A stretch of DNA of 64,000 nucleotides from Rhabditophanes sp. KR3021 (lineage: Eukaryota; Nematoda; Chromadorea; Rhabditida; Alloionematidae): NCBI GenBank assembly GCA_963281155.1, contig CAUJLY010000006.1, positions 744,001-808,000 of the forward strand, read 5' to 3'. Positions 29,506 through 33,356 of this stretch are shown here, one piece after another. The position numbers were made by a program, and so were the translations under genes. Under the pieces are notes generated by a model, which was not told the DNA's origin, did not search any database, and saw only the letters and a list, made by a program, of their open reading frames with translations. How positions within the stretch are numbered: position 1 is the stretch's first letter; every line of letters starts with the position of its first letter.

Positions 29506-30849
29506 CTAGATACAAAATCCGCACAAACGGGGGCATAATTGTCTGCAACAAATAAATAAAGATTAATAAGATATAATTAGGACATACCTGTACATGGTTT
29601 GATAAGTTGGATTGGTGCAAAGATTTTTTTTACTTTCAACGCAATCTGTAGTTCCATTAGCCTGAAATAATGTTTTCAAAGTATAAAAGATTGTACCCGA
29701 TTAATTTACTTTGTAGGTATCGGCACAAACTGTTCCAGTGTTAGAGGTCAAACATCTCTGGCATGTACGTGGACAATTTGTCGTCATAACCGAGTACCAA
29801 GCAGCAACATTACAGTTAGCAGCAAGAGCAGTACATGAATTTGGACCACCCGTTACCAAATCAACGCATGTTGTTGTTGAAGTTCCTCCACCAACAGTTG
29901 AGGGTACTCCAATACCGCCACCAGCAGCTCCAGTTCCTAAAGAATTTAAATATATTCCTATACTTTCTAACTTACCAGCTCCAGCAAGTGCACAGAATGA
30001 ACATGTTGCAGCACTGTATAATGAATTTAATTACTTATTAAATTAAATAACTTACCAATTCTAGAAAGAATTATTACTAGTTATTTGTGATATTTTATAA
30101 ACTTACTTCAACCATAAATTGCTTATATGCACCTGAATTACAAAGTGAAGCCATTGCTGTACAAGTGGTGGAAGTTGAAGCTAAAGTGTCAACACATGTC
30201 GTCGATGCAATTGTTGTAGCACCTCCGGCAAGGGCACATGTATTACAAGTTGAAGCGCTAAAAACAATTATTAATTACAAATTGTGCAAGTTTACCAATC
30301 AGATGACATTAAAGCTTGATACTTGGCATCTGTACATAATCCTTGGGCATTGAGAGCTTCGCAATTTGCTAAAATAAAAAATACTTATCAAGTTTTATAT
30401 AGTTAAACATACGAGCAATATCAGTACAAGTTCCAACTGTAGTTGCTACAGTGGTTGAATCTGTTGATCCAATCGTTGTCAGTTCGCATTGAAGAGTTGC
30501 TTCGTTACATGTTCCGGCACATGCTGGGTCACATGTATTAGCAGCTTCACTAGAAAGATCACATGTGAATTGCCCAGGAATGGTAGTACTATCAGTACAT
30601 ACATTTGCTACTGGACAAGTAGTATCTCCTGTTACACAGGCTTTAGAACATATAAGTGTTCCGGAACTTGCTGTTGGTGGTTTTTCATTGCAAGCTAAAA
30701 TATTCATAATAAATTAAAATTTAATTCAATTTACCGAGTCCAGCATCACAAGTATCAGTAGCACTACAAACCTCTCCAACACCAACTCCAAATACTGACT
30801 CAAACCCAACACACAAAACAACAACCAAAACTAATTTGCAAGAAACCAT
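29506..30849 (-). CDS. Secreted protein with four ShKT domains, nine exons
   Basis: The exons are 30735-30849, 30413-30694, 30296-30368, 30107-30257, 30056-30060, 29976-30013, 29710-29936, 29588-29661 and 29506-29542. They sum to 1002 bases, 333 residues. A signal peptide (MVSCKLVLVVVLCVGFESVF) is followed by a Cys-rich stretch and then four ShK-toxin-like (ShKT) six-Cys domains. Each ends in M-x-x-[DNL]-C-x-x-[TL]-C-x-x-C: SSDCASTCNTC, VENCAATCSFC, TTNCPRTCQRC and RQLCPRLCGFC. A Gly-rich linker separates domains 2 and 3. Introns are 38-49 bases. The exon of five bases (30056-30060) is needed to keep the frame and the domain 2 cysteines. ShKT repeats are common in nematode secreted enzymes and surface proteins; this one has no enzyme domain. 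Confidence 0.85.
30056..30060 (-). other. Predicted 5-nt microexon of the ShKT gene
   Basis: The bases AATTG on the minus strand lie between an acceptor (TTTCTAG) and a donor (GTAAGTT). Included, they give GAA-AAT-TG/T, residues E-N-C, and restore the second ShKT domain. Skipped, the total exon length is 997 and the downstream cysteines vanish into another frame. The first ShKT domain has an intron at the same place (GAT TG/C) but no extra intron five bases upstream. Confidence 0.75.
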
Positions 30850-31698
30850 TATAAAACGAATGTATTGAAATACAATATGATACTTTCTTCAAAAATCATT
30901 TCCCTTTATACAATACATCATATTTATTTAGGTGAATGCCAAAATTACAGCTGCAAAGATTAAACTGCTTAAAAAATACATATCAAGCTGACTAAATAGG
31001 AAATACTTTGTTTGGTTTCAATTAATATGTCACCCTGTTTGCAAGCTTAATTACAGCAGACTCAGAAACAGTTTATAAATGTCAATACAATATAATCAAG
31101 ATAAACAAATTACATCACATATTTCAAATATATCCTATTTTTTGATGTTGAAGTTTAAAAAATAGTTTAGGTTAACCATTAAAGTGATCATTTAATGTAG
31201 TTGATTTTTAATGTGTTTAAACAGCTGTAGTCACATTTTTGAACAGTTAATTTGGTACATTTTTTAAATAACTTTAAACCTAAAGTATATTTGAAGATTA
31301 TTGTTCATTCAAAATTTGTTGATATATTTCATTTTTATATCTTGACAAATACAATTCCCAAAATTGTCTAGATTATACATTATTAACATTTTTAGCAAGT
31401 AAACACAATATAAGATACTTAAAAAGTAAAATTTGACACTATTATCCTTAATCAAATAATGTAGACAATAAGCTCATAATCGAAAATAAAGAGATTATTA
31501 TAAATAAATATGTATAATAGTGTTATTAGTTTGATGAACTTTATTGTTTGCTACACTTCATACAAGCATACATTAACATATATTTTTAATAAAATGGTTT
31601 TAATTTTGGAATGATAATCTGAGGAAGTACTATAAAATTATTTTATTATTTCACACTTATTTATTCCAAATACTTTATTTCTAATATATGGAAATAAG
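30850..31698. other. Shared upstream region, nothing recognised
   Basis: About 850 bases between the divergent ShKT and alkaline phosphatase genes. No element was recognised. Confidence 0.4.

Positions 31699-33356
<1,658 letters not shown>

Follow-up and report, generated by a model that had tools for sequence, protein, structure and literature searches.

The window analysed here, the whole 64,000-nt stretch of DNA, comes from the nematode Rhabditophanes diutinus KR3021, whose genome consists of 44,845,725 bases in six contigs; the window is part of contig C6. Rhabditophanes is described as a free-living genus (PMC5979966, PMC10676819), and R. diutinus KR3021 has been cultured on OP50 bacteria on NGM plates (PMC10676810). 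On the minus strand of the window lies a gene of nine exons, in which all eight introns are GT-AG and 38–48 nt long and whose coding sum of 1002 nt gives 333 aa and a stop. It is a gene of four ShKT domains, whose product is probably secreted. An adjoining long open frame on the plus strand (31749–33356) matches alkaline phosphatase (PF00245, 321.5 bits).

Exon 1 (30735–30849, minus strand as for all the following parts; 115 nt) carries the ATG and a hydrophobic N-terminus that resembles a signal peptide by eye. Exon 2 (30413–30694; 282 nt) encodes a Cys-rich N-terminal region and the beginning of ShKT domain 1, the remainder of which runs through exon 3 (30296–30368; 73 nt) to GAT TG in phase 2. 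The end of domain 1, a linker and domain 2 as far as ...MVE (phase 0) occupy exon 4 (30107–30257; 151 nt). Intron 4 (30061–30106; 46 nt; GTAAGT...TTTCTAG) is followed by exon 5, the five bases AATTG (30056–30060), which provide one Asn codon and then the TG of the codon for the fourth Cys of domain 2. Intron 5 (30014–30055; 42 nt; GTAAGT...TATACAG) splits this codon at TG^C, the position also found in domain 1 and at the ShKT-like ends of other loci, and exon 6 (29976–30013; 38 nt) finishes the domain as C-AATCSFC. Domain 3 and the start of domain 4 are encoded by exon 7 (29710–29936; 227 nt), in which a message skipping exon 5 would stop, and domain 4 continues in exon 8 (29588–29661; 74 nt) and ends, with the TAG stop, in exon 9 (29506–29542; 37 nt).

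The case turns on exon 5. In the minus-strand direction (30060–30056) AATTG stands between AATTCTTTCTAG on its 5' side and GTAAGTTATT on its 3' side, and the 19-base string TTTCTAGAATTGGTAAGTT occurs once in the 44.8-Mb genome. With a microexon defined as an internal exon of at most 27–51 nt with spliceosomal introns on both sides, the 5-nt segment TTTCTAG/AATTG/GTAAGT falls within the class by length and splice sites, and its paralogous counterparts are likewise bounded by GT and AG. The initial annotation had placed AATTG between TTTCTAG and GTAAGTT, which are strong splice signals, and this holds in a full model with eight GT-AG introns; its sums of 1002 nt with and 997 nt without the five bases were both reproduced on recomputation. 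Omission shifts the frame and brings the first stop at codon 245, in exon 7, with two junctions beyond. The spliced window protein contains four ShK stretches (PF01549, 85.1 bits in total) and four six-Cys patterns, which makes it a member of the ShKT class. With the microexon, domain 2 scores 33.3 bits against a PF01549 cut-off of 20.9, whereas without it no PF01549 match is obtained at E up to 10, and the earlier claim that skipping exon 5 ruins the cysteine pattern is confirmed.

Other ways of joining exons 4 and 6 were enumerated over the whole of exons 4 to 6 as pairs of a GT or GC donor and an AG acceptor that enclose an intron of 30–300 nt. None of the 209 single-intron splices of the window gene gives both the frame and the ShKT pattern, nine being open in frame, while one of the four microexon solutions of 1–30 nt does so, and this is AATTG. 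The same enumeration was carried out for two paralogous loci, L033 and L035. There, none of 366 and none of 172 single-intron splices, respectively, gives the ShKT pattern (58 and 11 open in frame), and one of two microexon solutions at each locus restores frame and pattern, each time the 5-nt one. Over the three genes the single-intron alternatives thus number 747, with 78 open in frame and none with the ShKT pattern. A 9-nt version of the exon, extended to the next GT (AATTGGTAA or AACTGGTAG), was rejected, as its length is a multiple of three and gives the wrong frame between exons 4 and 6. The role of chance was assessed with 20,000 dinucleotide shuffles of the 93 nt between exons 4 and 6, the outer splice sites being fixed. 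Any Cys-restoring microexon of 1–30 nt arose in 0.91% of the shuffles for the window gene and in 0.47% and 0.32% for the paralogs; a 5-nt NNNTG exon with a GTRRG donor arose in 0 of 20,000 for the window gene and in 1 of 20,000 for each paralog.

The microexon reading gains further backing from the paralogs, two diverged genes with the same 5-nt exon in the same codon, although all three copies come from one genome. At L033 (contig C1, near 9,255,000) the exon reads AACTG in ...GCC/AACTG/TGC, and at L035 (contig C6, near 964,500) it reads AATTG in ...TCA/AATTG/CGC; the T-to-C difference in AACTG is synonymous, AAT and AAC both encoding Asn. The flanking introns measure 46 and 42 nt in the window gene, 41 and 41 nt in L033 and 45 and 41 nt in L035. 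The paralogous proteins share 67% (L033) and 65% (L035) identity with the window protein as well as the start MVSCKLVL, and with the microexon included the three can be aligned over their full lengths, each showing four ShKT patterns, domain 2 reaching 33.0 bits in L033 and 35.7 bits in L035. Blocks upstream of the three genes, such as TTCACCTA, TAAATA and AAAGTATCATAT, are also common to them (window 30850–31050, minus strand; L033 521–721; L035 740–941), which suggests a common promoter and co-expression. In the other copies the domain-1 intron sits at TG^C, whereas that of L033 (1240–1290) lies, by eye, nine bases further downstream and may reflect an intron slide, or a loss and a gain.

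The background against which the exon has been kept is strongly diverged, the synonymous sites of the three genes being near or past saturation (dS 1.2–2.6 in eight comparisons, undefined in one). Between paralogs the intron interiors compare at z of 0.8–2.1 over shuffled pairs, while AGAAYTGGTARGTT is kept; the most alike are those of the window gene and L033 (z 1.8 and 2.1), so the neutral background is not wholly erased. Because the exon and its splice sites have been kept despite this divergence, their conservation is the main evidence for function. Exon 4 shows dN/dS of 0.13 against L033 and 0.12 against L035 (L033 against L035 is undefined, dS being saturated) and is under purifying selection. 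GTAAGT donors occur at five of the six introns around the microexon vs. four of the 17 elsewhere in the three models (Fisher one-sided p = 0.018, from related and hence not independent genes). These other 17 introns are 37–49 nt long in 16 cases and 80 nt in one, and the introns fused by loss of the microexon would measure 93, 87 and 91 nt in the window gene, L033 and L035.

On this evidence we consider it highly probable, at roughly 0.92, that AATTG is a real 5-nt microexon used in the mature mRNA of the window gene. The proposal that the window gene is instead a decaying, frameshifted copy or an assembly error, with the flanks of AATTG arisen by chance, is scarcely credible. Dead copies do appear to arise in this family, as the truncated L045 with its in-frame TGA indicates, but the same arrangement stands at three separate loci, and a Cys-restoring microexon appears in less than 1% of the shuffles per gene. 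The frame of the window gene is otherwise intact, and over three stretches its dN/dS against the paralogs is 0.09–0.31. The paralogs alone bring this reading close to refutation.

The public gene models bear on another alternative. Each of the paralog loci yields, to the letter, one public protein of Rhabditophanes sp. KR3021, P0001 or P0002. P0001 (286 aa, from the L033 gene) equals the exact model without the exon before the microexon and without the microexon itself. In P0002 (232 aa, from the L035 gene) intron 2 is kept, and VSSNDPL is read from the intron before the microexon, followed by a stop. Both models appear to be wrong at the microexon, though that of P0001 may rest on RNA reads. 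The protein database, which possibly lacks the v.2 gene set of R. diutinus (predicted with BRAKER and RNA-seq), yielded no close model of the window gene. Among its proteins of about 183–583 aa, P0001 and P0002 were the best matches to the window protein, at 52% and 54% identity, and among those of about 86–273 aa P0002 was the best match to the N-terminal part, at 49%.

P0001 has the form of a splice that the earlier reading overlooked, in which exon 4 and the microexon are both left out and an intact three-domain protein would result. Together the two exons measure 156 nt in the window gene, 147 nt in L033 and 159 nt in L035, all multiples of three. Since introns 3 and 5 of the window gene split the same cysteine codon, the pair can be dropped in the window gene and L035 with frame and ShKT pattern intact, and the resulting hybrid domain (...SSDC-AATCSFC) scores 42.1 bits in the window gene and 44.1 bits in L035, against 41.7 bits for native domain 1 of the window gene. 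After the same skip in L033, the spacing between the fourth and fifth cysteines grows from three residues to six and the six-Cys pattern no longer holds, though the Pfam score is 32.0 bits. As the double skip also gives an intact domain, the domain argument alone is insufficient to establish use of the microexon, and what favours inclusion is the selective constraint acting on exon 4, together with the fact that the microexon is conserved.

It is very unlikely that most transcripts lack both exon 4 and the microexon, with exon 3 joined to exon 6, three domains in the product and AATTG rarely or never used. The pair length in all three genes, the hybrid-domain scores similar to that of native domain 1 and the exact double skip in P0001 would fit such an arrangement; however, exon 4 retains its ShKT cysteines at dN/dS of 0.12–0.13, and the microexon and its splice sites are conserved in three genes, neither of which is expected of unused sequence, and in L033 the product would lose its six-Cys pattern. 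Also rather unlikely is a reading in which exon 4 and the microexon form a coupled cassette: both included would give four ShKT domains, both excluded three, one of them a hybrid without a seam, and a skip of the microexon only a stop. If this were true, five bases would control both the number of domains and the dose in a three-way switch, and at least two of the three sister genes would have retained it.

Returning to a microexon that is used in the mature mRNA, we think that its inclusion is mainly constitutive. Five bases would be too few for exon definition, and for this reason intron definition is likely: the splice sites would be paired across each short intron (46 and 42 nt). In the simplest mechanism, introns 4 and 5 would be removed one after the other, and after the first cut the five bases would already lie within an exon of normal size. 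Intron definition has been proposed for C. elegans microexons, and at that of unc-13 the requirement for PRP-40 is eased when a flanking intron is short (PMC8378409).

It is also conceivable, though unlikely, that use of the microexon is regulated and serves as a frame switch, a sub-case that overlaps the favoured reading: inclusion would give the four-domain protein and skipping of the microexon only a premature stop and mRNA decay, so that splicing would set the protein level. Skipping of the microexon only would put stops at codons 245, 246 and 216 of the window gene, L033 and L035, with two, three and three exon junctions downstream, and alternative splicing affects 283 of 411 Drosophila microexons (68.9%; PMC8042270). 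A stop is, however, expected from the skip of any frame-shifting exon; with strong donors and introns as short as these, inclusion should be efficient, and in C. elegans the need for PRP-40 at small exons rises with the length of the flanking introns (PMC8378409).

The two introns around the microexon probably differ in age. The TG^Y position, which splits the fourth-Cys codon, occurs in domain 1 of the window gene, the L035 gene and L045, and also, by motif without a profile test, at ShKT-like ends in L013, L050, L055 and L056. The underlying listing had 11 rows, the script having excluded rows with a stop just upstream, and four rows were dropped as wrong parses: L001 (99-nt intron), L033 forward, L033 reverse (stop) and L114. 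The upstream intron, five bases earlier, was found in the three paralogs only, in a limited scan. That strict regex scan, which can miss cases, found no single intron at the upstream position; for other positions it returned one row (L086), a result of little weight, as its motif misses domain 4 of these genes. Because the TG^Y position is widespread and the upstream one restricted, the downstream intron is probably the older, and the phase-0 upstream intron would have been gained later, before the three paralogs diverged. The initial proposal, gain of a second intron five bases ahead of an ancestral one, is thus favoured by the recurrence of TG^Y, as a matter of parsimony within one genome.

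An initial look at PF01549 gave 172 candidates, 150 of which were scored. Microexons were surveyed by a regex scan of 123 loci and the window (overlapping stretches), covering all 116 listed PF01549 matches. A domain interrupted by a microexon may score under the profile threshold, and domain 2 of the window gene is indeed absent from the list of matches; a gene whose domains are all interrupted in this way would escape the survey. Five distinct 5-nt candidates were returned, namely the three paralogs, L061 and L056. The last two were taken as chance, L061 for its in-frame stops and L056 for its position on the strand opposite the ShKT-like exon and its poor donor, GTTGGA. Ten loci with truncated ShK matches, viewed by eye, contained no microexon.

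Other features of ShKT genes emerged from the survey. At L045 (1200–1660; contig C6, near 862,000) lies a fourth, truncated member of the family whose domain 1 is interrupted by an in-frame TGA and in which domain 2 was not recognised; it looks like a dead copy. Several ShKT matches form distant pairs of identical score (C1:8868996 and C3:7457877; C1:4062729 and C1:5163322; C1:2500841 and C6:2082), which suggests recent duplications or assembly duplicates. L063, L065 and L069 form a further ShKT group with an intron between the fourth and fifth cysteines (NCKK/TC in L063), so introns near these cysteines recur at different positions.

The three related genes, in a free-living nematode grown on plates, offer a natural test case of the spliceosome facing an exon too short for exon definition. 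Wrong ShKT models would distort domain counts as well as comparisons with related parasitic Strongyloides species. The AATTG exon was not found in print within the open-access PMC library, and PMC5979966, the one paper there found to name both Rhabditophanes and microexons, mentions the latter only as an aligner option.

The initial annotation held five-base exons to be very rare in any genome, which is roughly right but overstated. In ten plant species 2,398 exons of 15 nt or less have been counted, a 5-nt exon in rice has been confirmed by sequencing of RT-PCR products, and GTRAGT donors are conserved at the 1-nt exons of VPS55 (PMC8831610). Plant microexons of 1–15 nt have RNA-seq proof, whereas the nematode exon is predicted from sequence, and ShKT is not among the motifs named for them in the available part of that source (PMC8831610). 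In Drosophila, all six tested exons of 3–7 nt were verified by RT-PCR and sequencing (PMC8042270). They are, like AATTG, animal exons of such size, AATTG being one of 5 nt in an ShKT-domain gene. The microexons of Drosophila Ubx are 51 nt long. Ubx, to which one study assigns two 5-nt exons (PMC8042270), is therefore not used here as a 5-nt precedent.

The C. elegans microexons that depend on PRP-40, such as the 9-nt unc-13 exon, resemble AATTG in being nematode exons for which intron definition has been proposed (PMC8378409, PMC12287369). They differ in being alternative and neuronal, and the unc-13 exon is a multiple of three, whereas AATTG shifts the frame and is flanked on either side by a very short intron. 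The schistosome MEG genes also combine very short exons in worm genes with secreted proteins, as the window protein probably is (PMC10526429). Their exons, however, are of 3–81 bp and their introns of up to 5 kbp (PMC10526429), whereas the window gene has one 5-nt exon among others of 37–282 nt and introns of 38–48 nt, and so lacks the short exons and long introns throughout that mark the MEG type. Exons this small are rare but known; what is distinctive here is the frame-changing length, the split conserved Cys codon, the two very short introns and the occurrence in three genes.
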